Below, in pieces: positions 12,193-29,606 of a stretch of 64,000 nucleotides of DNA. The DNA comes from Caldilineaceae bacterium (GTDB lineage: Bacteria > Chloroflexota > Anaerolineae > Caldilineales > Caldilineaceae), in NCBI GenBank assembly GCA_022842065.1, contig JALHQH010000002.1:34199-98198 (forward strand), given 5' to 3'. The notes beneath the pieces are model-generated. The model saw only the letters and a program-made list of their open reading frames with translations, was not told where the DNA came from and did not search any database. Position 1 is the first letter of the stretch, and every line of letters starts with the position of its first letter. The translations under genes were made by a program, and so were the position numbers.

Positions 12193-14709
12193 TTAGCGTG
12201 CAGCTAAGGCAGCGCGGATGGCCGCGGCATGGGGCAGCGCCAGTAGCGTCTGCGCCAATTCAACTCCGTTGCGATAGCTCATGGCCCGAATCTGTGCTTT
12301 CACCTGCGGAATCGCCGGTGCGCTCATGCTCAGTTCATCAATGCCCAAGCCAACCAACAGCGGCGTGGCTAGTGGATCACCAGCCAATTCGCCACAGATG
12401 CCAACCCAGATGCCGGCAGCGTGAGCCACGGCGATAACTTGCGCAATCGCCGCAATCACGGCTGGTTGCAAGGCATCGATCAACCCGGCCACTTTAGCAT
12501 TGCCCCGGTCGGCGGCCATCAAATATTGAGTTAGATCGTTGGTGCCAATGCTAAAGAAGTCAACTACGGCGGCCAAGCGCGTGGCGTTGAGGACCGCAGC
12601 CGGCGTCTCGATCATAATGCCGATAGCCAGTTCCTCGGCACAATCGATCCCGGCAGCCTTTAAGGCCTGCGCTTCCGCGGCCAACAAGGCGCGGGCCTGC
12701 TCGACTTCGGCGACTGTGCTGACCATCGGGAACATCAATTGCAAGGGATGCCCATAGCCGGCCCGTAAGATGGCGCGCAGTTGCGTGCGAAAGAGCGTGG
12801 GGTTATCCAGACAATAACGAATACCCCGCCAGCCGAGAAAGGGATTTTCCTCGACCCCAATCCCCAAATAGGGCAGCGGTTTATCACCCCCCACATCCAG
12901 GGTGCGAATCAGCAGGGGACGATCGCCCAGGGCAAGGGCGGCGGCGCGATAGGCTTGAAACTGTGTCTCCTCGTCGGGCGCTTCGGTGCGCCCCATGAAA
13001 AGAAATTCGGTGCGAAAAAGGCCAACGCCTTCGGCCCCTTGGGCGAGCGCAGGGGCGACTTCAGCCGCGCTGCCAATGTTGGCGGCAATCTCAATGCGGT
13101 GGCCATCGGTGGTAATCGCTGGGGCTAGTGCAAGCGTACGCGCGGCGTTGCGGCCTGCCAGCCACACTTCGCGGCGCGCCTGTAATTCAGTTTTAGTCGC
13201 CGCATCGAGCGCAAGCCAAAGTTGACCACTGCTGCCGTCCAGGGCAAGTTCCTGGCCATGGTTGATCAGCGCTAACGCGTCGGCCACCCCTGTCACCGCG
13301 GGAATGCCCAGGCTGCGAGCGATGATCGCCGCGTGGCCAGTTGCACCACCAGTCGCCGTGACAATGCCCAACACAAGCGCCGGGTCAAGTGCCGCGGTGT
13401 CAGAGGGGGTCAACTCGGCGGCGACGAGAATTGCGGGTTCACGCATAGTCGGCGCGGCGTTGGCCAGGGCGCGATCCACTGCCAGGTGGCACAGGACACG
13501 ATTGCCGACATCGCGCACATCGGCAGCGCGGCGACGCAGATAGTCATCTTCGAGCGCTTGATAATCGGCCACTAGCGCGTCAATCGCCTGTTGCCAGGCC
13601 CAGGCCGCGTTGACCGCCTCGGCAGCGATCTGGTGATTCACCTGTGCCAGCAGCGCCCGATCAGCCAACATCAACCGTTGCGCAGTGAGGATACCGGCTT
13701 CATCAGAACTGGCGCGGGTAGCAAGTGTTTGTTCCAATGCGGCCAGCGCACCTTTAGCCGCGCCGACCGCTTGCGCAAACTTGTGCTGTTCAGCCACAAC
13801 ATCGGTGATCGGCTCGCGCATAACGACAGGGGGTTGTTGCCCCAACACAAAGGCCGGTCCGATGGCGATCCCACTGGAAGCGGGTAGACCGAGAGGTTGA
13901 CCAGAGGTCGGGGCGTGGTCAACAACGTCCGGGGCTGTGACCGCAGTATCAGCAGCAGCCGGCACATTGTCCTCAGGCGCGTCACCAAAATTCTGTGCCG
14001 CCAATTGCTGAATGGCGGCGAGTACGGCGGCGCTGTCCGGCCCGGTCGCCGCAAAGGTGATCAGATCACCTTGTCGCGCACCGGAGGTGATCACCTGGGT
14101 GATGCTGCCGGCGTCAATGGTGCGCGGTCCATTAGTGAGTGTCACGCGGGCGGCAAAGCGGTTCACCAATTCGACCAAACGTGCTGCCGGGCGGGCATGC
14201 AGGCCAAGGCGATTGGGGATGGTGAGGGTCAGTTCGGCATCAGCAGCGGTGAGGGGGGCAGGGGTTGGCGGCAGCGCCGCGACGGGCGGCTTGATCCGCA
14301 GCACTGGTTCGAGTTGCGCCAACTTGGCGGGCAGGGCGGCCCGTGCTTCGGTCAACACCTGTGCTAAGGCTGCGCCACCCGCCGCCGCCACCGCCGCCGC
14401 CAACGCCCCCTCGACCAGCGGCACTTCACAGAGATAGATCTGCGCCTGTTGGTCGGATTCCAGAAATTCGATGGCCGCTTCGGCACTCATGATCGCGCTG
14501 CCCAGATCCATCAGGATCAACACCCCATCGGCACTATAGACCGCTTCCATCGCCTCATAGACGCGCATGGGATCGGTGCCGATGGGCGCATCGGGATTGT
14601 CTGTGCCGGCAGCCAGCGCGACCGCCGCGGTCGGGGCCATCTGGCGAATCAGCGCCAGCAGCCCTTCGGCCAGCGCTAAACTGTGAGAAACGAGGACGAT
14701 ACCGACCAT
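12193..14709 (-). CDS. dhaM: DhaM: EIIA(DHA)-HPr-EI phosphotransferase fusion
   Basis: An 838-residue chain that carries phosphate from PEP to the DhaK/DhaL kinase. Domains in order: the dihydroxyacetone EIIA domain (residues 1-130, active H9 in VLVSHSLALAEG); HPr (158-240, active H171 in NRLGLHARPAARLV); and complete enzyme I (about 275-838, active H459 in GGATGHAAIIARSLGIP, then a PEP-binding barrel with GTNDLTQYLMAADR and the ICGELAGDP cysteine). E. coli DhaM has a truncated EI; this one is full length and needs no separate PTS proteins. Ala/Pro-rich linkers join the domains. It is last in the cluster, after DhaK, DhaL and an ASCH gene. No clear Shine-Dalgarno. Confidence 0.93.
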   Translation of the reverse strand: MVGIVLVSHSLALAEGLLALIRQMAPTAAVALAAGTDNPDAPIGTDPMRVYEAMEAVYSADGVLILMDLGSAIMSAEAAIEFLESDQQAQIYLCEVPLVEGALAAAVAAAGGAALAQVLTEARAALPAKLAQLEPVLRIKPPVAALPPTPAPLTAADAELTLTIPNRLGLHARPAARLVELVNRFAARVTLTNGPRTIDAGSITQVITSGARQGDLITFAATGPDSAAVLAAIQQLAAQNFGDAPEDNVPAAADTAVTAPDVVDHAPTSGQPLGLPASSGIAIGPAFVLGQQPPVVMREPITDVVAEQHKFAQAVGAAKGALAALEQTLATRASSDEAGILTAQRLMLADRALLAQVNHQIAAEAVNAAWAWQQAIDALVADYQALEDDYLRRRAADVRDVGNRVLCHLAVDRALANAAPTMREPAILVAAELTPSDTAALDPALVLGIVTATGGATGHAAIIARSLGIPAVTGVADALALINHGQELALDGSSGQLWLALDAATKTELQARREVWLAGRNAARTLALAPAITTDGHRIEIAANIGSAAEVAPALAQGAEGVGLFRTEFLFMGRTEAPDEETQFQAYRAAALALGDRPLLIRTLDVGGDKPLPYLGIGVEENPFLGWRGIRYCLDNPTLFRTQLRAILRAGYGHPLQLMFPMVSTVAEVEQARALLAAEAQALKAAGIDCAEELAIGIMIETPAAVLNATRLAAVVDFFSIGTNDLTQYLMAADRGNAKVAGLIDALQPAVIAAIAQVIAVAHAAGIWVGICGELAGDPLATPLLVGLGIDELSMSAPAIPQVKAQIRAMSYRNGVELAQTLLALPHAAAIRAALAAR

Positions 14710-15312: not shown

Positions 15313-15948
15313 TCAATCCGATTGAACGACATTGGCCAGTTCGTTCAGCAACAGATAAGTCGAAGTCGCCCCCGGATCCTGGTGGCCGATGCTGCGCTCG
15401 CCGAGATAGCTGGCACGCCCTTTGCGCGCTTGCAGGGGGATGGTGGCTTTCATGCCGGCCTCGGCCGCGTCAACGGTGGCATGTAACGCCACGGGCAATG
15501 ACTGGCCGGCGGCAACCGCAGCTTGCAACGCGTCCAGGGCCGGCGTCCAGGCGTCGATCATGGTCTTGTCACCTAGCTCGGCGCGGCCACGTTGGATGAT
15601 GCCATCCTTGCCGGCGCTGAAGACTGTGAGCAGTTCCTCGGCGCTCAATGCTTCCTTACCAGTAGCCACAGTTGATGCCTTCATAAAAAAGTTGCCATAG
15701 AGCAGGCCGCTAGCACCGCCGACCGCGGACATGAGGGTCATGGCGACTAGTTTGAAGATCGCGCCAATGTCTTTATCAGCCACCGTAGGCAGCTTTTCGG
15801 CAATGGCCTTGAAGCCACGCGCGATGTTGGCCCCGTGGTCGGCGTCACCAATCGGCGAGTCGAGTTCGGTGAGGTACGCTTTGTTTTCGTCAAGCACCGT
15901 GGCGGATCGTTGCAGCCAGGTGATGATTTGGGTTTTGGTCAGGGTCAT
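15313..15948 (-). CDS. dhaL: Dihydroxyacetone kinase subunit DhaL (PTS type)
   Basis: A 211-residue ADP-binding subunit of the PEP-dependent dihydroxyacetone kinase. The Mg-ADP site is visible as D30-SPIG-D35-A-D37-H38-G. Other hallmarks are VGGASGLLYGNFF (residues 75-90), GDKTMIDAW and the terminal GERSIGHQDPGATST. DhaL keeps a bound ADP that DhaM rephosphorylates and passes phosphate to the substrate held by DhaK. It sits between dhaK (separated by a hairpin) and the ASCH gene. The ribosome binding site is weak (GAG). Confidence 0.93.
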   Translation of the reverse strand: MTLTKTQIITWLQRSATVLDENKAYLTELDSPIGDADHGANIARGFKAIAEKLPTVADKDIGAIFKLVAMTLMSAVGGASGLLYGNFFMKASTVATGKEALSAEELLTVFSAGKDGIIQRGRAELGDKTMIDAWTPALDALQAAVAAGQSLPVALHATVDAAEAGMKATIPLQARKGRASYLGERSIGHQDPGATSTYLLLNELANVVQSD

Positions 15949-15969
15949 GGGTTTTTCTCATCATATTCA

Positions 15970-16045
15970 GCAAAGCGTTCCGGGGACGGCCCAGCAAAAC
16001 TTGCGATGACGTAAATCGCGATGGGCCGTCCCCGGAACGCTTTGC
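15970..16045. repeat. 24-bp perfect inverted repeat between dhaK and dhaL
   Basis: Arms gcaaagcgttccggggacgg-ccca (15970-15993) and its exact complement (16022-16045) enclose a 28-nt loop that itself has gcgat/atcgc complementarity. It fills the whole dhaK-dhaL junction. No U-tract follows, so an mRNA-stability or processing role is more likely than full termination (inference). Confidence 0.9.
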
Positions 16046-16050
16046 GCAAC

Positions 16051-17121
16051 TTACACGCCCCAGCGCAGGGCAGGGGTTTTGACGGGGGCATCCCAGAATT
16101 TTAGGATTTCGGCGTCCGCTTTGACGAGGGTGATCGAGCAGCCTTGCATTTCCAGTGAAGTGATGTAGGGGCCGATCAGGTTGCGCACGATCTGGACGCC
16201 GCGCGCCTCACAAATTTGGGCCAGTTTGCGGTAGACCCCATAGAGTTCGGCGACCGGGGTGCCGCCCAGGCTGTTGACAAAGGCGATCACCTCATCGCCG
16301 GCTTGGATCGGCTCGTCGGTCAGGGTTTTGTCGATCCACTCACCAGCGTCGCGGTCAAATTCGCGCACGGTGCGGGTGTAGGGGCCGTCGTCCAGAATTT
16401 CGTTGGCGAGCAGGGTGGTGATCGCATCGACGGTGGTCATTTTGATGCGCTGCATCCCCGGTTCGCCGTGGATCCCGACCCCAATCTCGATTTCGTCATC
16501 GGGCAGGTCAAAGATCGGCGAACCCTTGGAGGGGGTCACACACGAGGTCAGCGCCATGCCCATCGAACGGCCATTTTGGTTGACTTTGCGCGCCAGGTCG
16601 GCACATTGGTCAAGATCATAACCAGCTTGGGCTGCGGCCCCGACAATCTTCTCGACAATGACGGTGGTCCCGACGCCGCGGCGACCTGCCGTGTAAAGGC
16701 TATCCTTGACGGCGACATCGTCATCGATCAGGATATTCTGCACCTTGATGCCGTCAAAGTGGAGCAATTCCGCGCCGGTCTCGAAGCTGAGCACGTCGCC
16801 GGTATAGTTCTTGACGAGAAAGAGCACCCCCGCCCCACTATCGACCGCCTTGCCACATTCGTACATCTGGTCCGGCGTGGGCGAGGTGAAGACTTCGCCG
16901 GGGCAGGCACCGGTCAACATGCCCACGCCGACAAAACCACCGTGCATCGGTTCGTGGCCACTCCCGCCGCCGGAGACAATCGCAACCTTGCCGGCCAACG
17001 GCGCATCCGCACGGATGATGTAATGGGGGCTGATGTTGATTTTAAGTTCGGGGTGGGCGGCGGCCATGCCCTGGAGTTGTTCGACGACGACATCATCGAC
17101 ACCGTTGATGAGTTTTTTCAT
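16051..17121 (-). CDS. dhaK: Dihydroxyacetone kinase subunit DhaK (PTS type)
   Basis: A 356-residue substrate-binding subunit. Dihydroxyacetone is held covalently by a histidine: H218 in [11 protein letters not shown], the same number as the E. coli residue. H56 in [12 protein letters not shown] and the N-terminal [15 protein letters not shown] are typical of the PTS-dependent DhaK. Length equals E. coli DhaK. AAGGA lies about 9 bases before the ATG at 17121. Downstream are dhaL and dhaM; upstream is a toxin-antitoxin cassette, then the ABC ATPases. Together these suggest uptake followed by phosphorylation of dihydroxyacetone. Confidence 0.95.
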
Positions 17122-17160: not shown

Positions 17161-17526
17161 TCAGAAAATTGGCAGATGATGATAACGCACACGATTGGGG
17201 GAAACGGTTAGCATAGCACCAGAATCTAATTCTTCTGCCCACTCTTTTATCAGGGTTTCAAGCAATCTTGCGAGTGGTTCGGCCTCTAAGCCTTCGATTC
17301 GAACACGGATAACAGATGGGCTTATCGCGCTAGACAGAGCCAATAGCGTATGAAAGTCTGCATCCAGCGTGACAATAACACGCTTTTCTGCTTGTGCCCT
17401 TTGTAGGATTTCAAAATCTTCAGCAGTGGCAAGATTAATTTCGCCAGTATGGACTGCATCAATGTCTACGGCGCGCAGCAACGCCGCGGCGGACCGTGGC
17501 AAACATTGATCAAGTAGCAATTTCAT
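17161..17526 (-). CDS. DUF5615 (PIN-like) putative toxin
   Basis: A 121-residue protein of the DUF5615 PIN-like family. Typical features are the N-terminal KLLLDQCLPRSAAALLRA with an acidic residue early, a central acidic strand (IVTLDADFHTLL), and the C-terminal part of a compact nuclease fold. These proteins are usually partners of DUF433 and are thought to be RNase toxins; activity is inferred from the family. The start overlaps the DUF433 gene by 17 bp, as usual for toxin-antitoxin pairs. It lies within the glycerol-type catabolic cluster just upstream of dhaK. Confidence 0.85.
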   Translation of the reverse strand: MKLLLDQCLPRSAAALLRAVDIDAVHTGEINLATAEDFEILQRAQAEKRVIVTLDADFHTLLALSSAISPSVIRVRIEGLEAEPLARLLETLIKEWAEELDSGAMLTVSPNRVRYHHLPIF

Positions 17527-17755
17527 AATTAAACTCTACCACTTTATCATCTAAAGAAGCAGCGGCGTAGACAAGCGCTTGATTGATATCTTCATCTTCT
17601 AACTCTGGGTACTCTATACGTAATTCATCACGATTAGGGTAAAGGGCTAGTATCTCCAAGACGCGCTTTACAGTTAAACGCAGATCGCGAATGGTTGGTT
17701 GGCCATTCATACGCGCCGGGTTAACACGAATACGATCAAGTTTTGTGGCTGTCAT
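17510..17755 (-). CDS. DUF433 antitoxin-like protein
   Basis: An 81-residue DUF433 protein: LDRIRVNPARMNGQPTIRDLRLTVKRVLEIL followed by a PELEDEDINQALVYAA helix, the usual helix-turn-helix antitoxin core. It pairs with the overlapping DUF5615 gene. I place the start at ATG 17755 because family members begin about here and GGA lies 8 bases upstream. An in-frame GTG at 17806 overlaps the preceding gene's stop (GTGA) and would add 17 residues, so coupled translation from that codon is possible. Confidence 0.85.
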   Translation of the reverse strand: MTATKLDRIRVNPARMNGQPTIRDLRLTVKRVLEILALYPNRDELRIEYPELEDEDINQALVYAAASLDDKVVEFNYEIAT

Positions 17756-17802
17756 ATCATTATCCATTAGCAAAAAAGCACATCTTGAACGGGAAATCAA
17801 GC

Positions 17803-18048
17803 TCACCGCTGTGCATGAAATGGCTCCCCATCAAGCACAGTAAAGCTCGTTAATTCTTCGTCATTCTCATAGTCGGCCAGCAACAGTGCCGCAGCTTGAG
17901 CAAGCGTAATGCTTGAAGCATCATTATCTGCTGGTAAAGACACAACACGCACCTTTGCAGAAACGATTTCACGTGCAGATTGCAACATTTCAAGTTGTTG
18001 GGGAAGGGTTAGTTGGCTAAATTCATCCAGCAATTGCATTTGTGTCAT
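17803..18048 (-). CDS. Small hypothetical protein upstream of the DUF433/DUF5615 pair
   Basis: An 81-residue protein (MTQMQLLDEFSQLTLPQQLE...; later LAQAAALLLADYENDEELTSF). The N-terminal half resembles small antitoxin-like or regulatory proteins that begin with a L-x-x-L-x-x-x-Q-Q-x-E helix, and the tail ends TVLDGEPFHAQR. I do not recognise a named family. It is immediately upstream of and possibly coupled to DUF433, so it may be a third member of the toxin-antitoxin unit. Confidence 0.6.
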   Translation of the reverse strand: MTQMQLLDEFSQLTLPQQLEMLQSAREIVSAKVRVVSLPADNDASSITLAQAAALLLADYENDEELTSFTVLDGEPFHAQR

Positions 18049-18143: not shown

Positions 18144-19256
18144 TCAAGCCGTCGTCAACGTCACATCCGGTGTATGACCATCTGCGCCGAACAAGCGCAC
18201 CCGATTCAGGGGAAATTCCACCCAGACGCTATCACCAAAGCCGCTGCCCTGGCCCGCCGGCAACTTGGCCTTACAAGTGCGATCACCCACTTTGAGTTGG
18301 AGCAGTGTCTGGCCACCGATCACAATTGCCCGGTCAACCACTTGGGCGGGGACGGCAGCCAGAGATTGGGCGGCACTGACACGGACATGCTCAGGGCGGA
18401 TACCCAGGGTGAGTTGGTGAGGGTTACTGTTAACGCCAGCCACTTTAACCGCTTGGGCAAAAAAGGGCAGGCGATAGGCCCCATTTTGCGCAGAGGTAAA
18501 GAGCCCCTCGAAAAAGTTCATCCCTGGGTTGCCCATAAACCAGCCGCCAAAGACATCGTTGGGCTGATTGTAAATTTCACGCGGGGAGGCGTATTGAATA
18601 ATCCGGCCATCCTTCATCAGCGCGATGCGGTCGGCCAGGGTCATCGCCTCGGTCTGATCGTGGGTGACGTAGATGATCGTCTGGTTGAGACGGGTGAAGA
18701 GTTCTTTGAGCGCCCTCTTGAGTTGCAACTTGGCGTTGATATCGACATTGGTAATCGGCTCGTCAAAGAGGATAATGCGCGGTTGACGGGCAACGGCACG
18801 CGCAACGGCGACCTTTTGGCGCGTGCCATTATCAAGGCTGCGAATATCCTTGTCCACGCTATCGCCCATCTCCAGCAATTCGACCACCTCGTGGACACGC
18901 CGCGCGCGTTCGGCCTTGGAGAGCTTTTCTTCGCGCAGCGGCAATTCGATATTTTCGCGTACACTGATGCCGCGATAGACCACCGGATATTGAAAGACCA
19001 TGCCAATGTTGCGCTGGCGCGTTGACAGCCCGGTGATGCGCTCATCGCCAAAGTAGATCTCCCCGTGCGAGGGGCTTTCCAACCCTGCGATCATACGCAT
19101 CAGCGTTGTCTTGCCACAGCCGGACGGACCGAGTAGACAGGTCGTCGTGCCGGCGGGGAAGGTCATGGTCAGATCATTGACGGCGACCACTTTGCCCCCT
19201 TTGGATCTGTCACTGCCGAATGCTTTGTGTAAGTGTTCGAGACGGATGTCGAGCAT
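18144..19256 (-). CDS. ABC importer ATPase 1 (GlpS/MalK-type) with degenerate signature motif
   Basis: A 370-residue sugar-type (CUT1) ABC ATPase with a C-terminal TOBE/regulatory domain (LGIRPEHVRV near residue 290). Walker A is GPSGCGKT (43-50), Walker B IILFDEP with the catalytic Glu, and switch H199 in YVTHDQTEA. The signature is LDNGT (141-145) instead of LSGGQ. The gene sits 14 bp after a small DUF433 gene that is coupled to the second ATPase. AGGAA lies before the ATG at 19256. With two permeases, a DUF2160 protein and a binding protein upstream it matches the rhizobial glycerol importer, which also uses two different ATPases. Likely heterodimer with the 19471-20553 product. Confidence 0.9.
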   Translation of the reverse strand: MLDIRLEHLHKAFGSDRSKGGKVVAVNDLTMTFPAGTTTCLLGPSGCGKTTLMRMIAGLESPSHGEIYFGDERITGLSTRQRNIGMVFQYPVVYRGISVRENIELPLREEKLSKAERARRVHEVVELLEMGDSVDKDIRSLDNGTRQKVAVARAVARQPRIILFDEPITNVDINAKLQLKRALKELFTRLNQTIIYVTHDQTEAMTLADRIALMKDGRIIQYASPREIYNQPNDVFGGWFMGNPGMNFFEGLFTSAQNGAYRLPFFAQAVKVAGVNSNPHQLTLGIRPEHVRVSAAQSLAAVPAQVVDRAIVIGGQTLLQLKVGDRTCKAKLPAGQGSGFGDSVWVEFPLNRVRLFGADGHTPDVTLTTA

Positions 19257-19270
19257 GAAAACATTTCCTA

Positions 19271-19474
19271 CTAATTCGTGTGATAAGAAAGCGCCGCAAT
19301 TACATCGTCAACTTCAAGATCGGGCAACTCTTCGAGAATATCAGCGACACCTAATCCGGCAGCAGATAATTCGACAATGTCTTGCACACGAATCCGCATG
19401 CCGCGAATACACGGTCTTCCACCACACTGGGCCGGATTGATCGTAATCCGCTCGTTACTTGGTTGATTGCTCAT
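19271..19474 (-). CDS. Lone DUF433 protein between the two ABC ATPase genes
   Basis: A 67-residue DUF433 protein: RITINPAQCGGRPCIRGMRIRVQDIVELS, then VADILEELPDLEVDDVIAAL. The ATG at 19474 overlaps the stop of the preceding ATPase gene by 4 bp (ATGA), which indicates translational coupling. No toxin partner is adjacent; the nearest DUF5615 gene is 1.7 kb downstream, past the other ATPase. It could be an orphan antitoxin, a transcriptional regulator of the operon, or the relic of a second cassette. Confidence 0.85.
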   Translation of the reverse strand: MSNQPSNERITINPAQCGGRPCIRGMRIRVQDIVELSAAGLGVADILEELPDLEVDDVIAALSYHTN

Positions 19475-20553
19475 GCGTTTCGCTGACCATCCACATAGAC
19501 CACCAAATCGGTCGGTCGTAGCCAATAGGTCACCAGTTGATCAATATTGACATGGGCCTGCGATTCATCATCGCTGCGCAAGACGGTTGTCAGTTGATGA
19601 CCAGCAACGTCGAGATAGACGATTTCTTCGCCACCCAGATCTTCGCGCAGGAGCACTTTGGCGCGGCCGGTAATGGTGTTGGCCGGGGCGGCGGTCGCCA
19701 GGTTGATATGTTCGGGACGCACCCCAATCGCAACCGTTTGGCCGGCAACCAGTGACCCATTGGCCGGCACGGTAAAAAGTGGGGTCTCGACTAACGTCTG
19801 CCCACCCCGCTGCACCACCTTGCCTTCGACAAAGTTCGCCTGGGGAAAGCCGACATAACGCATCGTTTCCGCCCGTTGTGGTATGGTGTAGAGTTGCGGC
19901 GGATTACCCTGCTCCACAATGCGCCCCCCATGCAACACCGCAATCGACCGCGCCAACATCAACGTTTCCACCGCGTCGGAGGTGGTGTAAATAAAGGTGA
20001 CACCAAGCGTCTGTTGTGTCTGTTTCAGGTCATCGATCAGGCGCTCGCGCAGCTTAAAATCGAGGCCGACCAGCGGATCATCCAGGATGAAAACTTCGGT
20101 ATTTTTGACCAAGCCGCGCGCAATCGCCACGCGCTGCTTCTGGCCACCGCTCAACTGGTCGGGTTTGCGATCTAAGAGTTCAGCAATCCCTAACAATTTA
20201 GCCACCCGTTGCACCGCTGGTTCGACTTGCGCTTTGGGGGTACTGGACAAAGTCAGCGGATAGGCAATGTTTTTATAGACGCTCAAATGGGGATAGAGCG
20301 CAAAGGATTGGGGCACATAGCCGATGTTGCGCGCCCCGGCGGAAGCATTGGTTACATCCTGGCCGCGCAGCAAGATCTGGCCACTGTCTGGGCGTTCCAA
20401 GCCGGTCAACAAGCGCACCAACACGGATTTACCACTGCTGGGCGTGCCATAGATCACCGCGAAATCACCCGGTTCTACCGTCAAGGTGACATCGTGTAAG
20501 ATCGTCGTCTGGCCATAACGTTTGGCTAACTGCTTTAGTTCAAGAATTGCCAT
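19471..20553 (-). CDS. ABC importer ATPase 2 (GlpT/MalK-type) with degenerate catalytic residues
   Basis: A 360-residue CUT1-type ABC ATPase with a TOBE domain (IGVRPEHINLATAAP). The signature LSGGQ (134-138) is canonical and Walker A reads GTPSSGKS (36-43). The Walker B motif reads VFILDDP, with Asp where the catalytic Glu belongs, and the switch-His motif reads YTTSDAVE, with Ser in place of His. It should bind but poorly hydrolyse ATP. Its defects complement those of ATPase 1. Its stop overlaps the DUF433 start, and a multi-hairpin repeat precedes it; no clear Shine-Dalgarno. Confidence 0.9.
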   Translation of the reverse strand: MAILELKQLAKRYGQTTILHDVTLTVEPGDFAVIYGTPSSGKSVLVRLLTGLERPDSGQILLRGQDVTNASAGARNIGYVPQSFALYPHLSVYKNIAYPLTLSSTPKAQVEPAVQRVAKLLGIAELLDRKPDQLSGGQKQRVAIARGLVKNTEVFILDDPLVGLDFKLRERLIDDLKQTQQTLGVTFIYTTSDAVETLMLARSIAVLHGGRIVEQGNPPQLYTIPQRAETMRYVGFPQANFVEGKVVQRGGQTLVETPLFTVPANGSLVAGQTVAIGVRPEHINLATAAPANTITGRAKVLLREDLGGEEIVYLDVAGHQLTTVLRSDDESQAHVNIDQLVTYWLRPTDLVVYVDGQRNA

Positions 20554-20690: not shown

Positions 20691-20975
20691 CTACCGCCCC
20701 AGCCCGACCAATACCGGGGCCAGGGCGATGCTGATGGCAAAAATGGCGGCGGTGACGCCCATAAAAATTGCATACATGCGCAGCGACTTGCCCAACCGGG
20801 CCGAGGGCGGAATGTTGCCAAAGGCGATCTGGCTCAAAGTGGTCACCGCCAACAGAATTAACCCAGCTTTATAGCCGTCAAAGCTGCTACGCTGGCCGAT
20901 CAACACGATACTCAACAACATCAGAAAGACCAGCACCAGTTGCATGACCGAAGTGAAGGTTCGTTTACCGCCCAT
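20691..20975 (-). CDS. DUF2160-like small membrane protein (GlpU-like)
   Basis: A 94-residue protein with three hydrophobic segments: SVMQLVLVFLMLLSIVLIG (9-27), AGLILLAVTTLSQIAFGN (37-54) and YAIFMGVTAAIFAISIALAP (68-87). Position and size match the DUF2160 membrane protein found with rhizobial-type glycerol ABC importers (GlpU). Its role is unknown; it may assist the permease. The start follows the permease stop after 3 bp, with GGGGAGG about 8 bases upstream of the ATG at 20975. Confidence 0.75.
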   Translation of the reverse strand: MGGKRTFTSVMQLVLVFLMLLSIVLIGQRSSFDGYKAGLILLAVTTLSQIAFGNIPPSARLGKSLRMYAIFMGVTAAIFAISIALAPVLVGLGR

Positions 20976-20978
20976 TGC

Positions 20979-21833
20979 CTAAACCTCCCCACGCACGGTG
21001 CCAAAGGTCATGCCGACCAGCAGATATTTTTGGAAGAAGAAGATCATCACCACCGGTAGCAACACATAAGCGGTTGAGAGGGAGGCAACAAAGGCCCAGT
21101 CAATGTTACCACCCGCGCTGACCAGCCCAACCGCCAGCGCATAGGGAATCATCTGCGTGGTACGGCCGCCGAGAATAAAGTTGAACAAGAATTCGTTCCA
21201 GACGAAGATCAGGTTGAAGATAAAAGCGGCGATGATCCCCGGCCAGACCTGGGGCAGCACGACCCGGAAGATCACATGCATGCGACTGGCCCCATTAACC
21301 AACCCGGTTTCATCAAAGCGCTGCGAAACGCCATCAATAAACCCCTTCAGAATCCAGATCGAAAAGGGAATGCTAAAGGAGGCATAGAGCAGAAAAACCC
21401 CCAACGCGGTGGAGCGCATGGGAATGCCCAGTCCCTTTTCCATGGCGTTAAACATCTGGAAAACCGGCACAATCGCGGCGGCAGCCGGCACCATGCGTGT
21501 GGACAAAAGCAGAAACATCAAAAAGTTGGTTGCCCGAAAGTTGTAGCGTGAAAAGGCATAGGCCGCCAAAAAGGAGACCACCGTTGCCACCAAGACCGAC
21601 CCCAACGAGAGAAAGAGGCTGTTGATAAAGTAAGGGATCGTGTTGGGCGCCGAAACCGTCTTGATGATATTGTCAAAAGTCGGCGTAAAGATAAACTTGG
21701 GCGGGATCGCCAGAATGTCATCCGGCGTCTTCAACGCAGCCAGGATAATCCAGAAGACTGGCAGGAAGAAGAGGATCGCAATCAGCCATAGAATGGCGTA
21801 GTAGAGACGGGTTTGGTTGGCGCTTGGTTGCAT
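20979..21833 (-). CDS. ABC importer permease 2 (MalG/GlpQ-like)
   Basis: A 284-residue inner-membrane permease of the MalG type with six predicted helices. The cytoplasmic coupling loop is visible as RFDETGLVNGASRMHVIFRVVLPQVWPG (EAA-type, around residues 190-215). The N-terminus LYYAILWLIAILFFLPVFWIILAALKTPDDIL is typical. It partners the permease at 22007-22960 and, from synteny, corresponds to GlpQ of the rhizobial glycerol importer. No strong Shine-Dalgarno before the ATG at 21833. Confidence 0.92.
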   Translation of the reverse strand: MQPSANQTRLYYAILWLIAILFFLPVFWIILAALKTPDDILAIPPKFIFTPTFDNIIKTVSAPNTIPYFINSLFLSLGSVLVATVVSFLAAYAFSRYNFRATNFLMFLLLSTRMVPAAAAIVPVFQMFNAMEKGLGIPMRSTALGVFLLYASFSIPFSIWILKGFIDGVSQRFDETGLVNGASRMHVIFRVVLPQVWPGIIAAFIFNLIFVWNEFLFNFILGGRTTQMIPYALAVGLVSAGGNIDWAFVASLSTAYVLLPVVMIFFFQKYLLVGMTFGTVRGEV

Positions 21834-22006: not shown

Positions 22007-22960
22007 TCAGCTTTCACTGGTACTGCGGCTCAAATTCAAAATATATAGATAGATCGACGTGAAGGCAATCGCAATCAACAACAAGACCAACGCCAGCGCC
22101 GATGAAAAACCCAAGTCTAAGCTGGCAAAGGCGAAGCGATAAAGCTTGAGGCCGATCAATTCGGTCACATTGCCGGGGCCGCCGTTGGTCATCAGGAAGA
22201 CCAAGTCGGTTGTCTTGAAGGCGTCGATGGTGCGCAGCAGAATACCAAGCATCAGGATAAACTTGCCATGCGGAATGATCACATGCCAGATACGCTTCCA
22301 CCACGAAAGGCGGTCGATCTCCGCGGCTTCGAGTTCGGCAGTGGGCACCGAGCCGAGCGCGGCCAGCGTCATCAGGATCATAAAGGGGGTCCACATCCAG
22401 ATATCCACAAAGAGCACCGCCGCAAAGGCCCAATCGACATTGGTTAGAAAGTCGATCTTGCCGGCACCGACGACGGTTAACAAATAGTTGGCAATGCCAA
22501 AGGTCGGCTCATAGATCAGCCGCCAGAAGAGGCCGCTAGCGACCGGCGTAAGTACCATCGGCGTGAAGAGCAGGGTCAACGCCACGCGGCGACCGGGCAT
22601 CTGCGTGCTGCCCCAAAAGAGAAAACCCAATCCCACGCCCGCCACGGTCTGCATGCTGACTGCCAACACGACAAAGAGAAAGGTGCGGCCAAAGGCACTC
22701 CACATCTCGGCGTCGTTGTAGATATCGGTAAAATTCTTCAGCGCCGCAAACTTGGGTGCGCCCGCGGACATCAGCGAGTAGTCATAAAAGCCCAAGCCGA
22801 CCATCCACAAAGTGGGGATCACGTTGAGCAGCACAAAGAAGGCAAGGATCGGGACAAGCAGGGCGATCGAGAAGTATTGGGACTCCTCAAAGCGGCGCCA
22901 GGGGCTAGGCGCGCGGGTCAAGGTCTTTTCGTTTTGTTGGATGATGGTATTTGAGGACAT
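22007..22960 (-). CDS. ABC importer permease 1 (MalF/GlpP-like)
   Basis: A 317-residue permease with a cytoplasmic N-terminus (about 28 residues) and six predicted helices. The EAA coupling loop is clear: ELEAAEIDRLSWWKRIWHVIIPHGKF (around residues 215-240). FTPMVLTPVASGLFWRLIYEP is typical of sugar and polyol permeases. It pairs with the downstream permease and the two ATPases. Between it and its binding protein gene are two unrelated open frames, which is unusual for such operons. No Shine-Dalgarno is evident 5' of ATG 22960; the preceding gene ends 7 bp earlier. Confidence 0.92.
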   Translation of the reverse strand: MSSNTIIQQNEKTLTRAPSPWRRFEESQYFSIALLVPILAFFVLLNVIPTLWMVGLGFYDYSLMSAGAPKFAALKNFTDIYNDAEMWSAFGRTFLFVVLAVSMQTVAGVGLGFLFWGSTQMPGRRVALTLLFTPMVLTPVASGLFWRLIYEPTFGIANYLLTVVGAGKIDFLTNVDWAFAAVLFVDIWMWTPFMILMTLAALGSVPTAELEAAEIDRLSWWKRIWHVIIPHGKFILMLGILLRTIDAFKTTDLVFLMTNGGPGNVTELIGLKLYRFAFASLDLGFSSALALVLLLIAIAFTSIYLYILNLSRSTSES

Positions 22961-22967
22961 AAATTAA

Positions 22968-23285
22968 TTAGCTCAGTGGTGGATGAATACCACGGCGAAC
23001 CGCTTCTGCCAGCGCTTCTGATTGGCGAATCCAAAGTTGATTGTAGATTTGCATTAAAGCGACTAAAGAGAGATGATCGGGATCTTTCAACATACCGGCC
23101 TGTTGCATATTCAATAACCTGTTCAATTGCCCAGCTTGAAACTCATCCATCTGGATGGCTGTTAATGCCAGCACTTCATCATTGCTCAGGGTTGTGAGTG
23201 GCGATTCGATAGTTAGATCACTATGAACTGGAGTTAGGACAATTCTTAATGCGTCAGTTAGTGTTTCGGTAATGTCTCGATGCAT
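22968..23285 (-). CDS. Small hypothetical protein (Leu/Gln-rich helical)
   Basis: A 105-residue, probably all-helical, cytoplasmic protein. The pattern LSNDEVLALTAIQMDEFQAGQLNRLLNMQQAGML, followed by LVALMQIYNQLWIRQSEALAEAVRRGI, resembles small uncharacterised proteins often seen in Chloroflexota and cyanobacteria near nuclease genes; this is recollection and not a family assignment. It lies 7 bp before the permease gene and after the DUF1963-like gene. No function is proposed. Confidence 0.7.
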   Translation of the reverse strand: MHRDITETLTDALRIVLTPVHSDLTIESPLTTLSNDEVLALTAIQMDEFQAGQLNRLLNMQQAGMLKDPDHLSLVALMQIYNQLWIRQSEALAEAVRRGIHPPLS

Positions 23286-23416
23286 GATATTTGACCAATT
23301 CTGTGCATTCTGCGATAGGTAATCAGGTAGAGTAGAATTAGCGTTACTGCTTTGCTTATATGTCTGGCCCTTTTTGCCGTAACATGATACTCAGAACCCA
23401 TCCTATTGTTAACGCA

Positions 23417-24337: not shown

Positions 24338-25876
24338 TTACCCTTCCAGGGTAATCCCTTCCAACTCGGCTGGCACCGGCGTCGTGGTGCGACCGGCGTC
24401 CAACAGGATCTTCTGCTGTTTGGCGGCGATGAAGTCGAGGACGCGCTGCGGGTCGGTGACCTGGCCGGCGGCATAGGCGCTGTAGGCCTCTTGCTGCACG
24501 GCGAGCAGTTCGGCGTATTCGGGCAAGTGCCAGAAGTCGCGCGATTTGCCTTCACCAAGCATGTACTTGAAGGCGCGGGTATAGGGAGTCGCTTCTTCAA
24601 AGCCTTCAGCATTGACACCGGCTTCGGACCAGGGCAAGCCACCATTGGCGATAAACTCTTCCTGCGCCTCCGGCGTGTACCACCACTTGAGGAAGTCGAT
24701 GCAGGCACGCATGTGGTCATCGTCATTGTACGAGTTGATCACCCACGGCTGACCACCCATCGCGCCGATCACATCCTTGCTGCCATCGGGGAAGACAAAC
24801 TTGGGATGGGGGCAAGCCAAGACTTTGCCCTCCAGTTCCGCCGGGATCATAAAGAGGCCGACGGCCAGCCACTGGAAGGCCGAGAAGACCTTACCCTGGG
24901 TGAAGAGGTCGATCATATCACCAATGCCGTAGTTCTCCGCGCCGGGCAGTTGGTATTGCTGCAGCGAGACGAAGTACTCAAGTTGGGCGGCGTTCTCGGG
25001 CGTATTGAGCACGCCGACGACATCGCCGGTCTCCGGGTTCCAGATGTCGCCGCCGGTAGCATAGACATAGGGATGGTAAGCGCAGGAGAAGAAGTCATAT
25101 TCCTTGCTGTACATGATCGCGGTGCCGGCAAAATCTTCGTCCGGGCGATGGAAGTGGGCAAAGATCTCTTCGTATTCCTGGACGGTCATCCCCTCAAATT
25201 CTTCGTAGGTGGTCGGCAGCTTCTTGCCATAGGTCGCTTCAAAGGCGGCCTGCTCTTCGGGATCTTCGAGCATATCCAAGCGCATAAAGATGCCCTGGGT
25301 GTCCGGCATCTGCGGGAAACCCCAGCGTTTGCCGGAGCCATCGGGGTAGACCTGATAGGTTTCGCGCACCAGTGAACTGTAGACGGGAATGTCCAGTTCG
25401 GGGTTCAGGGCGTAGACATCTTCAGCGCTGACAATCCAACCTGGTTCCGACAAAGCACCCAGCCATTGGCTATCCGAAACGATCAGGTTATATTCCTGGG
25501 AACCGGAGGCAAGCGTTGGGGCCACTTTTTGGAAGAGCGCAGCAAAGGGTGCTTCCGTCTTGGTGACCGTGACATCGTAGCCGTACTTCTCTTTGGCGTG
25601 GGCAGCAAACTTGGGGAACATGTCGATCGGCAACTGGCTGGGCGGCCAACCGGCGATCACGGCCAGACTCAAGTTGAGCGACTTGCCCTGCATGTTAGTC
25701 TCATTGCTGCCGGCCAACGGGCTATCGGCACTGGGTGCTTCACCCGCGGCGGGGGCATCAGTGCTGCCGCCAGGGGCTGCACAGGCGGCTAGCGCCGCGG
25801 CGGCACTCAACGCCGCAGTGCTTTGCAGAAAGCGCCGCCGCGAAAAGGGGGATAGAGCAAATCTCTTCTCAGACAT
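24338..25876 (-). CDS. Tat-exported substrate-binding lipoprotein of the glycerol-type ABC importer (GlpV-like)
   Basis: A 512-residue solute-binding protein. The N-terminus has a twin-arginine motif (FSRRRFLQS) and a lipobox (LAAC), so it is probably exported folded by Tat and lipid-anchored. The mature part begins with a Gly/Ala/Pro-rich linker and reads LSLAVIAGWPPSQLPIDMF. Later features (FSAFQWLAVGLFMIP, FLKWWYTPEAQEEFI) fit the family 1 sugar/polyol binding fold. Strong ribosome binding site AAGGAG 7 bases before ATG 25876. It begins the importer genes, downstream of DhaL2. By synteny it resembles GlpV; the ligand (glycerol, DHA or a tetritol) is inferred. Confidence 0.85.
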   Translation of the reverse strand: MSEKRFALSPFSRRRFLQSTAALSAAAALAACAAPGGSTDAPAAGEAPSADSPLAGSNETNMQGKSLNLSLAVIAGWPPSQLPIDMFPKFAAHAKEKYGYDVTVTKTEAPFAALFQKVAPTLASGSQEYNLIVSDSQWLGALSEPGWIVSAEDVYALNPELDIPVYSSLVRETYQVYPDGSGKRWGFPQMPDTQGIFMRLDMLEDPEEQAAFEATYGKKLPTTYEEFEGMTVQEYEEIFAHFHRPDEDFAGTAIMYSKEYDFFSCAYHPYVYATGGDIWNPETGDVVGVLNTPENAAQLEYFVSLQQYQLPGAENYGIGDMIDLFTQGKVFSAFQWLAVGLFMIPAELEGKVLACPHPKFVFPDGSKDVIGAMGGQPWVINSYNDDDHMRACIDFLKWWYTPEAQEEFIANGGLPWSEAGVNAEGFEEATPYTRAFKYMLGEGKSRDFWHLPEYAELLAVQQEAYSAYAAGQVTDPQRVLDFIAAKQQKILLDAGRTTTPVPAELEGITLEG

Positions 25877-25914
25877 AGAGTTCTCCTTTGGTTTGTGAAA
25901 CGATAAGTACAATT

Positions 25915-26012: not shown

Positions 26013-26645
26013 TCAACAATGCTCTGCCAACACAGCCCCGACGGTTTGCAGGATGTACAACATGGAATAAGCCCCTGGATCGGGATGACCGATGCTGCGC
26101 TCAGCCAGCCGCGAGGAACGCCCCCGTTTGGCAGGTAGATCGGCAGTCGACGCGGCACCGGTGGCGGCGGCGGGGAGTGCGGCGTTCCAGGCCTGGGTCA
26201 ACCCAGCCCCTGCCATTACTTGGGCTGTAAACGCAGTAACAAACGGGTCGAGCGTATCGAGCATCGTCTTGTCACCCACCTTGGCTTTGCCTAGTTTCGC
26301 TAGCGCATCCCGGCTGGCGGTCATGGCGGCAGCAACAGTGGCCGCGGTTGGCGCTGCGCCAATCTTCTGCCCAATTGCGCTCATCATCATGCCATAGAGC
26401 GCACCGGACGAACCACCGGCGGCATCGGCAAAGGCACTGCCGGCCTGCATAAAGAGGTGCGGCACCGTTGTATCCATCGGGGCGCTTTCCAGCACGGTGA
26501 CCGCGGCGCGCATGCCGCGGGTCATACCGGTGCCGTGGTCGCCATCACCGGCGGCGGCGTCAAGTTTGCCCAGTTCTTCCTCGGCTGCGGTCAGCCGGTC
26601 GAGCATGGCTTGAAAAATTTGGCGCACAATCTCTGAAGCAGTCAT
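26013..26645 (-). CDS. Second DhaL-like kinase subunit
   Basis: A 210-residue DhaL homologue. ADP site: AAAGDGDHGTGMTRGM. Also GGSSGALYGMMMSAIG, VGDKTMLDTLDPF and a terminal AERSIGHPDPGAYSM. It is only moderately similar to the other DhaL (15313-15948). The ATG at 26645 is preceded by GAGGGTG; in-frame codons further upstream lie in a palindromic repeat and are not credible. It pairs with the DhaK homologue at 26750-27748. Because no second DhaM is present, it either shares DhaM or uses ATP directly, as erythrulose kinases of this family do (inference). Confidence 0.88.
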   Translation of the reverse strand: MTASEIVRQIFQAMLDRLTAAEEELGKLDAAAGDGDHGTGMTRGMRAAVTVLESAPMDTTVPHLFMQAGSAFADAAGGSSGALYGMMMSAIGQKIGAAPTAATVAAAMTASRDALAKLGKAKVGDKTMLDTLDPFVTAFTAQVMAGAGLTQAWNAALPAAATGAASTADLPAKRGRSSRLAERSIGHPDPGAYSMLYILQTVGAVLAEHC

Positions 26646-26656
26646 GATCACCCTCG

Positions 26657-26741
26657 TTCCACGCTCTGCGTGGAATGCGCATGGGGGCGCTCTGCGCCCA
26701 GGACGCAGAGCGTCCGCACTTGCGCCCACGCAGAGCGTGGG
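26657..26741. repeat. Four palindromes sharing the core CGCTCTGCG
   Basis: ttccacgc-tct-gcgtggaa (26657-26675), gggcgctctgcgccc (26685-26699), gacgcagagcgtc (26702-26714) and cccacgcagagcgtggg (26725-26741). All share cgctctgcg or its complement cgcagagcg. Fills the junction between DhaK2 and DhaL2. Confidence 0.9.
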
Positions 26742-26749
26742 TGCGAGTA

Positions 26750-27748
26750 TTAATGATTGGTATATGCCGGCGACGCGCAGGGGGCGTCGTATAAGGCTTG
26801 CAGTTCATCATCCAGCCAGAGTAGGGTCAAGGAACAACCGGCCATGTCGAGTGAGGTCACCATCTCGGTGACGATGGGCTTGTGCAGTTGCAACCCGGCG
26901 GCGGTCAGGTGCTGTTGTACCGAGCCATAGAGCACAAATAACTCTTCATATTTGGTCGAGCCCAACCCGTTGAGCAGCACGGCCACTTTGCTGTTGGCTC
27001 CAGCAGGCAGATCACCCAGCAATTTATCAACCAACAGCTTGGCAATCTCGGCGGCGGGGCGCATGATGTCGGTTTGGATGCCCGGCTCGCCGTGGACACC
27101 AAGGCCCAATTCCATCTTGTCCGCCTCGACCGTAAAGAGCGGTTCGCGCTGACCAGGGAGGGTGCAGCCATTAAAGGCAACGCCAAAGGAGCGAGTACGG
27201 TCGTTGGCCAAACGGGCATAGGCTTCAACGGTCGCCAGATCGTCGCCGCGTTCGGCACTGGCGCTGGCCACTTTGAAGACATGAAAATCACCGGCAATGC
27301 CACGGCGATTTTCTTCGTCACCCTTAGGGGCGGAGGCCACATCATCGGTGACGACGACGGTGCGCACCTCGATCCCTTCCATTTCGCAGCGCATGGCGGC
27401 CATGTCAAAGTTCATCACATCGCCACTGTAGTTGCCATAGCTGTAGAGCACCCCTTTGTCCGCGGCAATCGCCTTGGTACAGCGGTAAACCTGCTCGGTC
27501 GAAGGGCTGGTAAAGATCTCGCCGATGACAGCGCCCGTGGCCAAGCCCGGCCCCACAAAGCCACAAAAGGCAGGATAATGACCGGAGCCACCACCGATTA
27601 ACACGGAGACTTTGCCCGATGTCGGCGCACTGTGCGCCATCACCCCGGATGCGCCAGGAACGCGCTTGAGATAACGACCATAGGCGGCCACAAAACCGTC
27701 GATCATCTCTTCGCGAAAATTAATTGGATTATTATACAGTCGTGTCAT
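26750..27748 (-). CDS. Second DhaK-like kinase subunit (possibly erythrulose kinase)
   Basis: A 332-residue DhaK homologue. Substrate histidine H219 in GLGVHGEPGIQ and H57 in GGGSGHYPAFCGF. The N-terminus MTRLYNNPINFREEMIDGF is unlike the PTS DhaK at 16051 and resembles the DhaK-like kinases of tetrulose (L- or D-erythrulose) pathways. The pair with DhaL2, adjacent to a TIM-like isomerase and a PfkB kinase, supports a substrate other than, or in addition to, DHA. ATG 27748 is chosen: GGAAAG lies upstream, and the codons before it fall in a palindromic repeat. Confidence 0.88.
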   Translation of the reverse strand: MTRLYNNPINFREEMIDGFVAAYGRYLKRVPGASGVMAHSAPTSGKVSVLIGGGSGHYPAFCGFVGPGLATGAVIGEIFTSPSTEQVYRCTKAIAADKGVLYSYGNYSGDVMNFDMAAMRCEMEGIEVRTVVVTDDVASAPKGDEENRRGIAGDFHVFKVASASAERGDDLATVEAYARLANDRTRSFGVAFNGCTLPGQREPLFTVEADKMELGLGVHGEPGIQTDIMRPAAEIAKLLVDKLLGDLPAGANSKVAVLLNGLGSTKYEELFVLYGSVQQHLTAAGLQLHKPIVTEMVTSLDMAGCSLTLLWLDDELQALYDAPCASPAYTNH

Positions 27749-27781
27749 GGTACGTCTTTCCGTATATGCAGAGGAAGGGCA

Positions 27782-27830
27782 GACAAGATGACCGGATGAC
27801 AAGATGATTTTGTCATCCGGTCATCTTGTC
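27782..27830. repeat. 20-bp perfect hairpin (GATGACAA family)
   Basis: gacaagatgaccggatgaca (27782-27801) and its exact complement (27811-27830) with a 9-nt loop. Shares its unit with 1-178 and 40055-40235. Lies between the TIM-like gene and DhaK2. Confidence 0.92.
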
Positions 27831-27842
27831 ATTCGATCTTTT

Positions 27843-28637
27843 CTATTCAACCCAGCTCGCGCGATGGGCCGCCAACCCCAATTGCAACACCTCAACAAAA
27901 CCCTGCGGTGTCCACGCCGCCCGCCCGACAAAAAGGCCATCGACATCGGGTAAAGCCGCATACGCCGCACAGTTATCACGGTTGACACTGCCGCCGTAAA
28001 GCAAGGGGATCTGCCGAGCAACGTCACCAAATTTGGTCAGCAATACCGCACGCATCCAACTGTGCATCTCGCCAACCACCGTCGGTTCAGCCGGTGTGCC
28101 CCCTTCGCCAATCGACCAAATTGGTTCATAAGCGACCAACAGATTAGGCAGGGCAGCGGTTGGCAGATCAGCGAGCGCAGTCTTGAGTTGAATCGCAACT
28201 ACCTCTTGCGAAATACCGACAGCGCGTTCGGCGGCATGTTCACCAACACAGAGTAGCACACGCAGACTGGCAGATGTTGCCGCCATCACCTTTTTGCGCA
28301 GCGCTTCATTTGTCTCGCCAAAGAGCGTGCGCCGTTCCGCATGGCCAAGCATGACCAGTTCAGCGCCGGCTGCCCGCACCATTGAGGCCGAAATCTCACC
28401 GGTATATGCGCCTTCGGCAGCCCAGTGCATCGTCTGCGCCCCCAGCCAGATGGGGCGATCTTTCAGCCGTTCTGCCGCCGTTGTCAACGATGTAAAAGGG
28501 GGAATCAAAAAAAGTTGCAGTGTTGCACTAGCCAACGGATGGTCAGTCAACAGTTGACTAAGTTCTGTAATAAACGCCGCGGTCTGTGCTGGCGTCTGGT
28601 GCATCTTAAAGTTCGAGCCAAAGTAAAAAGGCATCAT
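27843..28637 (-). CDS. Triosephosphate isomerase-like protein
   Basis: A 264-residue TIM-barrel isomerase. Catalytic residues are kept: N9/K11 in GSNFKMH, H99 in MLGHAERR and E171 in VAYEPIW. Two departures from classic TIM are visible: the serine after the histidine is Ala (LGHAERR instead of LGHSERR), and flexible loop 6 reads PIWSIGEGGTP instead of PVWAIGTGKT. The phosphate-binding LYGGSVNRDN is kept. Such paralogues in polyol clusters isomerise erythrulose phosphates, so this is probably not the housekeeping enzyme (inference). Its ATG abuts the stop of the PfkB gene (TAAATG), indicating coupled translation. Confidence 0.85.
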   Translation of the reverse strand: MMPFYFGSNFKMHQTPAQTAAFITELSQLLTDHPLASATLQLFLIPPFTSLTTAAERLKDRPIWLGAQTMHWAAEGAYTGEISASMVRAAGAELVMLGHAERRTLFGETNEALRKKVMAATSASLRVLLCVGEHAAERAVGISQEVVAIQLKTALADLPTAALPNLLVAYEPIWSIGEGGTPAEPTVVGEMHSWMRAVLLTKFGDVARQIPLLYGGSVNRDNCAAYAALPDVDGLFVGRAAWTPQGFVEVLQLGLAAHRASWVE

Positions 28638-29606
28638 TTAGTCGGTCATCGGCAAGTGTTCAGCATTGCGCATAAAGGCCAGCGTCTGTTCCAGATCAAC
28701 AATCCCCGCATCCGAGCCAAGCCCGGTGGCGACCAAACCGGAAGCAGCCGTCCCCAAGCGCCCCGCCTCTTCTAATGACCAACCCTGACTCAGCCCATAA
28801 ATAAAGCCGGCGCAATAGGCATCACCACAACCGGTGGTATCAACCACAGCCACCTTGAAGGCGGGCAGGCGAATTTCGCCAAAGGCTCTCGCGGCGATGC
28901 TACTGCCCTGTGCACCCATCTTGAGTACGGTATGTTTCGCGCCGCGATCAAGGAAGAAATCGATCACATCCTGGCGACTTTGGTAGGGGTGCCCAGCCAG
29001 GCGCATCATCATCTGTGCTTCGTCCAAACTCGGCATGAAATAGTCGATATAGGGCAGACAGGGTTCGATCAAATCGAGCAGATCAGGCCGCTCGACCGCG
29101 ACCAGATCAAACGAAGTGATCACTCCATGTTGATGGGCAAATTTCAACAGTTCCACGGTCGGTTGGCCATCGAACTTAGGCATCAACGAAGTGCCGCCCA
29201 TGTGTAAATATTGGGCGGCTTTGATCACCTCCCAGTTGACATCTGCCAGGGTCATTTCGCCGTTTGCACCTGGGACATGCAGGGCTGGGCGTTCGCCATT
29301 CGGGCGGATCGGCAGCATAGTGGCGGAGCTTTGTACACCGGCCTTACGCACCAGATTGGTGGTGTCGATGCCATAGTTCTGCATGGTGTTGACGAGGAAA
29401 TTGCCCAGTTCGTCGGTGCCGACGGCACCCATCGCCACGACCTTTGCCCCTAGTTTGGCTAGGTCAACGCTGGTGCCGGCGGCCGTACCGGCCACCGTAA
29501 TCCGAATTTCATCAAGCAGGGCAACGTTCTGACCGGGGGGAATACTCGTGACAGGACGGCCAAGAATATCAACAATGTGGATGCCGATACTAATCACAGT
29601 CGCCAT
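28638..29606 (-). CDS. PfkB-family carbohydrate kinase
   Basis: A 322-residue ribokinase/PfkB-type sugar kinase. ATP and catalytic motif DTTGCGDAYCAGF (D256 to D262; the usual Ala is Cys), N-terminal GTAAGTSVDLAKLGAKV and PSLDEAQMMMRLAG are visible. It is the first gene of the catabolic cluster, translationally coupled to the TIM-like gene, so it may phosphorylate the sugar or sugar phosphate that the isomerase handles. The exact substrate cannot be read. A promoter-like TTGGCG-N18-TATGTT lies on the minus strand within the 350-bp upstream region. Confidence 0.88.
   Translation of the reverse strand: MATVISIGIHIVDILGRPVTSIPPGQNVALLDEIRITVAGTAAGTSVDLAKLGAKVVAMGAVGTDELGNFLVNTMQNYGIDTTNLVRKAGVQSSATMLPIRPNGERPALHVPGANGEMTLADVNWEVIKAAQYLHMGGTSLMPKFDGQPTVELLKFAHQHGVITSFDLVAVERPDLLDLIEPCLPYIDYFMPSLDEAQMMMRLAGHPYQSRQDVIDFFLDRGAKHTVLKMGAQGSSIAARAFGEIRLPAFKVAVVDTTGCGDAYCAGFIYGLSQGWSLEEAGRLGTAASGLVATGLGSDAGIVDLEQTLAFMRNAEHLPMTD

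Follow-up and report, generated by a model that had tools for sequence, protein, structure and literature searches.

Complementary defects in two MalK-type ATPases suggest a CUT1 importer that probably hydrolyzes ATP at one site and holds it at the other

In the window, i.e., the whole 64,000-nucleotide stretch of Caldilineaceae DNA analyzed here, one operon encodes two MalK-type ATPases, A1 (ATPase 1, T-type) and A2 (ATPase 2, S-type), with complementary motif defects, and this complementarity is a trait of the family to which the pair belongs. We are reasonably confident that A1 and A2 constitute a heterodimeric MalK-type (CUT1) importer motor, predicted to combine one hydrolytic and one ATP-holding site.

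Both open reading frames and their motifs are listed in Table 1. This reading confirmed what the earlier note had seen: A1 retains Walker A, the Walker B Glu and the switch His together with an LDNGT signature, and A2 retains LSGGQ together with Asp and Ser at the positions of the catalytic Glu and the switch His. The Q-loop of A1 (Q89) is intact as well; in A2, Walker A reads GTPSSGKSV (residues 36 to 44) and the Q-loop residue is Q82. In both proteins, ABC_tran, OB_MalK, and TOBE_2 all scored above their Pfam gathering scores. No solved structure was found for this family, the best solved chains being MalK-type (246 bits for A1 and 221 bits for A2).

Table 1. Coordinates of the two ATPases, their motifs, and neighboring genes in the window
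Feature	Position	Strand	Remark
A1 (ATPase 1, T-type)	18144..19256	-	370 aa; ORF and motifs read
A1 Walker A GPSGCGKTT, residues 43-51	19104..19130	-	
A1 signature LDNGT, residues 141-145	18822..18836	-	replaces LSGGQ; position computed from residue number
A1 Walker B (LFDEP), D165-E166	18759..18764	-	catalytic Glu present
A1 switch H199 (VTHD)	18660..18662	-	His present
A2 (ATPase 2, S-type)	19471..20553	-	360 aa; ORF and motifs read
A2 signature LSGGQ, residues 134-138	20140..20154	-	
A2 D159 (ILDDP, after D158)	20077..20079	-	at catalytic Glu position
A2 S192 (TTSD)	19978..19980	-	at switch His position
94-aa hydrophobic ORF	20691..20975	-	between permease B and A2
Permease B	20979..21833	-	MalG/GlpQ-like
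Permease A	22007..22960	-	MalF/GlpP-like
Solute-binding protein (SBP)	24338..25912	-	
DhaL (15313-15948) and DhaK (16051-17121)	15313..17121	-	dihydroxyacetone kinase genes
DhaM-like EIIA-HPr-EI fusion	12193..14709	-	
Second DhaL/DhaK, triose-phosphate isomerase family protein, PfkB kinase	26013..29606	-	

The family was taken as the 35 loci (L001 to L034 and L038) with A1 relatives at 46 to 67% identity; judging by record titles, some of which we interpreted to assign a phylum, these belong to Chloroflexota, Bacillota, Actinomycetota, Spirochaetota, Pseudomonadota, and Deinococcota, one being labeled just "bacterium." A pair was counted if signature, Walker B, and switch were readable in both subunits, and four of the 35 loci have no usable A2. 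In all 31 readable pairs, A1 lacks SGG and has Glu and His, whereas A2 has SGG with Asp and Ser; the A2 Walker A, readable in 30 pairs, contains GK in every one. Judged by its signatures, catalytic Glu, and switch His, each pair has all of its defects on one composite site and the other site complete (31/31). The two defect sets, whose co-occurrence the earlier note had proposed to check, occur together in every readable pair of the family, and pairing A1 with A2 is the only combination that gives a canonical site. Left out of the counts were duplicate copies of loci (L087, L102, L103, and L122), loci with no partner above the length cut (L004, L019, L026, L028, and L100), one with no partner in its stretch (L131), and the weaker matches L039 to L080 (26 to 34% identity). 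The partial A2 of L028 likewise has DDP and Ser, and L037 is a solitary ATPase with canonical motifs. The label of L019 (a Bifidobacterium breve MAG) possibly reflects a mislabeled bin; its A1 motifs fit those of other actinobacterial loci.

The same pattern was found among the nearest protein clusters. For A1 (best 120 of 7,999 scored), Glu and His were present in 120/120, LDNGT in 102/120, and SGG in none; for A2 (best 120 of 7,371 scored), all 120 combined Asp and Ser with [LI]SGG[QE]. Since the defects are the same in 31/31 pairs and in 120/120 nearest clusters for each subunit, they go beyond chance. Homodimeric CUT1 ATPases of the MalK/UgpC/MsmX type have the same domains as A1 and A2 but are canonical in signature, Glu, and His: all 19 comparison ATPases grouping with ordinary MalK-type references, a nonrandom set drawn from 20 stretches and four loci (with L122, L131, and L134 to L136 set apart), read [LM]SGGQ/DEP/H. 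The A1 family is also sharply delimited, as an A1 profile run against eight genomes gave A1 516 to 593 bits and no other MalK-type ATPase more than 331. In wider samples of 400, 149, and 150 genomes, A1 was found in the center genome alone, a lower bound given that 5 or 13 candidates were scored per genome.

Conservation was assessed in 156 rows for A1 and 151 to 152 for A2, locus and cluster rows overlapping and hence being partly nonindependent. All nine Walker A positions of A1 are invariant, as are Q89, D165, E166, and H199, and the variability of its signature is near the domain median, with relatives drifting to, e.g., LPSVL and LTHAV. One signature residue, D142, is Asp in 151 of the 156 rows, so the A1 signature is not free throughout and might itself serve some function. 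In A2, S135, G136, and G137 are invariant (152/152), and so are the Walker A Lys K42 (151/151), Q82 (151/151), and the Mg-binding D158 (152/152), with the free positions of Walker A drifting; the two substitutes, D159 and S192, are fixed in all 152 rows. Because the Walker A Lys, the Q-loop Gln, and the Mg-binding Asp are all present, A2 has probably retained ATP binding. The earlier note had predicted one canonical and one "fully" degenerate site; the former holds, and the latter is too strong a description given the binding residues that A2 keeps. Invariance of site 1 (defined below) and of the A2 binding residues next to a variable signature would suggest that the second site is kept for binding rather than catalysis, although the change from Glu to Asp in A2 may leave residual hydrolysis. 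Neutral decay, with one ATPase copy on its way to becoming a pseudogene, might explain the varying A1 signature, but we regard it as extremely improbable, as both genes have long open frames in 30 of the 31 pairs, across several phyla (the exception, L029, is a 3,374-base locus in which A2 is cut off at its N terminus and was retained in the counts), and as the A2 substitutes show no variation at all.

In a head-to-tail ABC dimer, each site combines the Walker motifs of one subunit with the signature of the other, as outlined in PMC7756269. If A1 and A2 pair in this manner, site 1 would consist of the A1 Walker motifs and switch His facing the A2 LSGGQ; it would be complete and expected to hydrolyze ATP. 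Site 2 would set the A2 Walker motifs, with D159 and S192, against the A1 LDNGT; MgATP would presumably be bound there and be hydrolyzed slowly or not at all, so that the site might serve as a closed hinge or a nucleotide sensor. The A1:A2 heterodimer is favored since either homodimer would comprise two half-broken sites. One ATP per import cycle would be expected by analogy with exporters, in which Glu-to-Asp sites are slow and a single ATP may suffice for reset. Specifically, human asymmetric exporters have an altered partner signature and commonly a Glu-to-Asp change in Walker B, and Glu-to-Asp sites hydrolyze slowly (PMC7756269); for heterodimeric exporters with degenerate sites, one ATP has been suggested to be enough for reset (PMC7756565). 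A CUT1 importer running on one site should not be taken for granted, given that MalFGK2 of E. coli reportedly needs both of its sites.

On the minus strand, the operon runs SBP, two ORFs, permease A, permease B, 94-aa ORF, A2, a DUF433 gene, and A1, and its two MalF/MalG-type permeases and extracytoplasmic SBP place the system in the CUT1 class. The SBP ORF opens at a TTG, the real start probably being an ATG further downstream; its match to the Tat signal falls just below the Pfam cutoff (20.7 versus 22.7 bits), and a lipobox-like LAAC was spotted by eye. The order SBP, permease A, permease B, small ORF, A2, and A1 recurs in 25 of the 35 loci, and the other 10 show the same order shortened by contig ends, except for one without a small-ORF match. 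Relatives of the 94-aa ORF were found in 29/35 loci; against Pfam, it gave nothing above the cutoff and no match to DUF2160 (GlpU) at E values up to 1. At a similar place, the operon of L081, one of the DHA-type loci described below, has a 70-aa ORF, and the glp operon has a DUF2160 protein. The DUF433 gene (19271-19525, minus strand), a downstream ATG of which overlaps the A2 stop codon as ATGA, looks inserted because the two ATPase genes are adjacent in L001. Directly downstream of A1, a DUF433 and a DUF5615 (PIN-like) gene (17161-17806, minus strand) form a toxin-antitoxin-like pair. The two ORFs (105 and 269 aa; 22968-24226, minus strand) that part the SBP gene from permease A, with a weak DUF1963 match below the cutoff, have no counterpart in the spacing of L001, where these genes lie close together.

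With a single permease pair and a single SBP in the operon, A1 and A2 most simply serve one transporter. That they instead work apart, each as a homodimer or as an ATPase serving several transporters in the way of MsmX, has some precedent, since sharing occurs among CUT1 ATPases and homodimers among MalK-type chains. We nevertheless consider it very unlikely for A1 and A2, which are encoded side by side in a conserved operon and carry complementary defects in 31/31 pairs; any homodimer would have two defective sites. As for the cargo of the predicted heterodimeric importer, dihydroxyacetone kinase genes flank the operon on both sides (Table 1), with an AraC-type regulator on the side of the second DhaL/DhaK set, and relatives of Dha, TIM, or PfkB proteins, one or more per locus, are encoded nearby in 31 of the 35 loci (none in the stretches of L001, L005, L028, and L029). 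Dihydroxyacetone, glycerol, or another C3-C4 polyol or ketose akin to them is the probable substrate, and the importer would accordingly carry a short compound of the glycerol, dihydroxyacetone, or tetritol kind.

Two distinct ATPases also occur in the rhizobial GlpST system. In R. johnstonii 3841 (L086), formerly named R. leguminosarum, we found the glp operon on pRL9 and read both ATPases there: GlpT has LTADQ with Glu and His present, and GlpS combines LSGGQ and Glu with a Thr that takes the place of the switch His. The operon published earlier comes from R. leguminosarum strain VF39 (PMC7912956). Together with 18 pairs from two class-wide samples (GlpT in 14 of 142 and 5 of 143 genomes, one of them without GlpS in its stretch), L086 gave 19 Glp pairs; GlpT relatives were further matched on 258 plasmid records. 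The GlpT signature is degenerate (LTADQ-like) in all 19 pairs, and the GlpS switch His is replaced by Thr in 15 and by Ser in 4, with Glu present throughout. GlpST, which the earlier note had raised as a possible counterpart, is therefore asymmetric at the same composite site, in a milder form that leaves the GlpS Walker B Glu intact. The window system shares with GlpSTPQUV its paired MalK-type ATPases and paired CUT1 permeases, as well as one small membrane protein and one SBP. The two systems differ in gene order (S-T-P-Q-U-V for the former), in the small protein (GlpU matches PF09928, i.e., DUF2160; the window ORF does not), and in their neighbors, with glpR, glpD, and glpK adjoining GlpSTPQUV and Dha kinases adjoining the window system; the ATPases are about 35% identical. 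No glpD or glpK was found among the identified neighbors in the window, and in the stretches around the 35 loci, a GlpD-like gene was found in none and a GlpK-like gene in three, at 26 to 27% identity. On the basis of neighboring genes and the missing DUF2160 match, we rejected the identification of the window system as GlpSTPQUV.

The Glp pairs also bear on the possibility that both sites of A1 and A2 hydrolyze alternately and function near-symmetrically, with Asp and Ser still catalytic and LDNGT divergent but working. A tuned catalytic set would suit the invariance of D159 and S192 and the near-invariance of D142, Glu-to-Asp sites apparently still hydrolyze, if slowly (PMC7756269), and GlpS retains its Glu in 19/19 pairs. 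In the window family, however, three defects converge on one site, and the SGG core is altered in 31/31 pairs, drifting as far as LPSVL and LTHAV; we thus judge alternating hydrolysis to be unlikely, more readily conceivable though it is than separate action or decay.

Not all two-ATPase relatives are asymmetric in this way. In 12 pairs of the DHA type, which is typically encoded beside dhaKLM-type genes (L035, L036, L081, L084, and the ATPase relatives L109 to L116), Glu and His are present in both subunits, and one subunit has a signature of LAGGD (six pairs), LSGGD (three), LSSGD (two), or LTSGD (one). The proteobacterial members L081, L084, L035, and L036 resemble the window in operon makeup and dihydroxyacetone kinase neighbors (in L081, permeases and SBP are 34% and 25% identical to those of the window), and DHA-type ATPases are approximately 33 to 38% identical to A1 and A2; unlike the latter, they combine intact Glu and His in both ATPases with a signature just mildly altered to L[AST][GS]GD. 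Of the plasmid matches listed for A1, five were read: three proved to be lone CUT1 ATPases of the ordinary kind, and two were pairs of the DHA type. In L134 and L135, signature, Glu, and His are intact in both subunits, and the Q-loop Gln is Glu in both. The counterevidence named in the earlier note, homologous pairs canonical in both subunits, is thus partly borne out outside the family, among more distant relatives and with the caveats just given for the DHA-type pairs, L134, and L135, and no such pair was found inside it; universal asymmetry of paired CUT1 ATPases is ruled out by these same pairs. In a further type, comprising L136, L138, and L139, the S-type subunit combines LSNGQ and DDP with a switch Gln (3/3), and its partner carries [IV]SGGQ, Glu, and His along with a Q-loop Glu; these three pairs blur the rule of one intact site, as that site is itself altered. 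Next to the L136 operon (L141, G004) lie two genes, one GlpD-like (50%) and the other weakly GlpK-like (44 bits). Over all 67 pairs (31 of the window type, 19 Glp, 12 DHA, L134, L135, L136, L138, and L139), loss of the Walker B Glu or switch His was confined to the S-type subunit and never seen in the partner.

For the ancestry of these pairs, a tree was built without the motif columns from 77 rows, to which 157 candidates had been reduced by even thinning within groups. A1 and GlpT came out as sisters (support, 99/99), and A2 and GlpS grouped weakly (75/68). Split from the canonical and T-type ATPases (98/92) were the second ATPases, namely, A2, GlpS, the partner in DHA-type pairs, and a single subunit from each of L134 to L136. 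In AU tests, a clade of A1 and A2 was not rejected (P = 0.162), and one of GlpS and GlpT was not firmly rejected (P = 0.058). A single ancestral ATPase pair is likely on this sequence evidence, and not firm, because the AU tests leave both of those clades possible; asserting such common descent outright was rejected in view of the weak grouping of A2 with GlpS and the A1-A2 clade that passes the AU test.

Asymmetric exporters such as TM287/288 and TmrAB have one consensus and one degenerate site. A1 and A2 resemble these, as well as TAP (ABCB2/B3), in that respect; the exporters carry TMD and NBD in one chain, whereas A1 and A2 are separate importer ATPases of the MalK type. Among importers, the CUT2 systems RbsA and NupO, with two NBDs per chain, have a degenerate ATP site, the second NBD lacking the Walker A Lys (PMC11466899). 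A1 and A2, in contrast, are encoded by two separate genes, and both have the Walker A Lys; a CUT2 (RbsA) type was ruled out, the NBDs not being in one polypeptide. The sections seen of the E. coli DppABCDF paper refer to a supplementary alignment with a degenerate-site ATPase and do not describe a degenerate site of its own (PMC12136057). Asymmetric ATP sites are thus already known in exporters and in fused CUT2 importers. For CUT1 importers, none of the open-access matches listed described a degenerate site; Ding et al. (2012), in first presenting GlpST, may mention one.

Tentatively, the two-ATPase CUT1 importers could be read as a series, from the near-symmetric DHA type through GlpST, lacking an intact signature and switch His, to the window family, lacking the Glu as well, in which importers have been converted to motors that use one ATP per substrate; we hold this to be possible, if somewhat doubtful. 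If it were true, half the price would be paid for a C3-C4 substrate. The number of ATP molecules spent per substrate is difficult to determine in symmetric importers, e.g., MalFGK2, and a naturally asymmetric close relative with near-symmetric cousins would allow a direct test of ATP stoichiometry. The mechanism of paired consensus and degenerate sites, mostly studied in exporters, would thereby extend to the best-studied class of importers.
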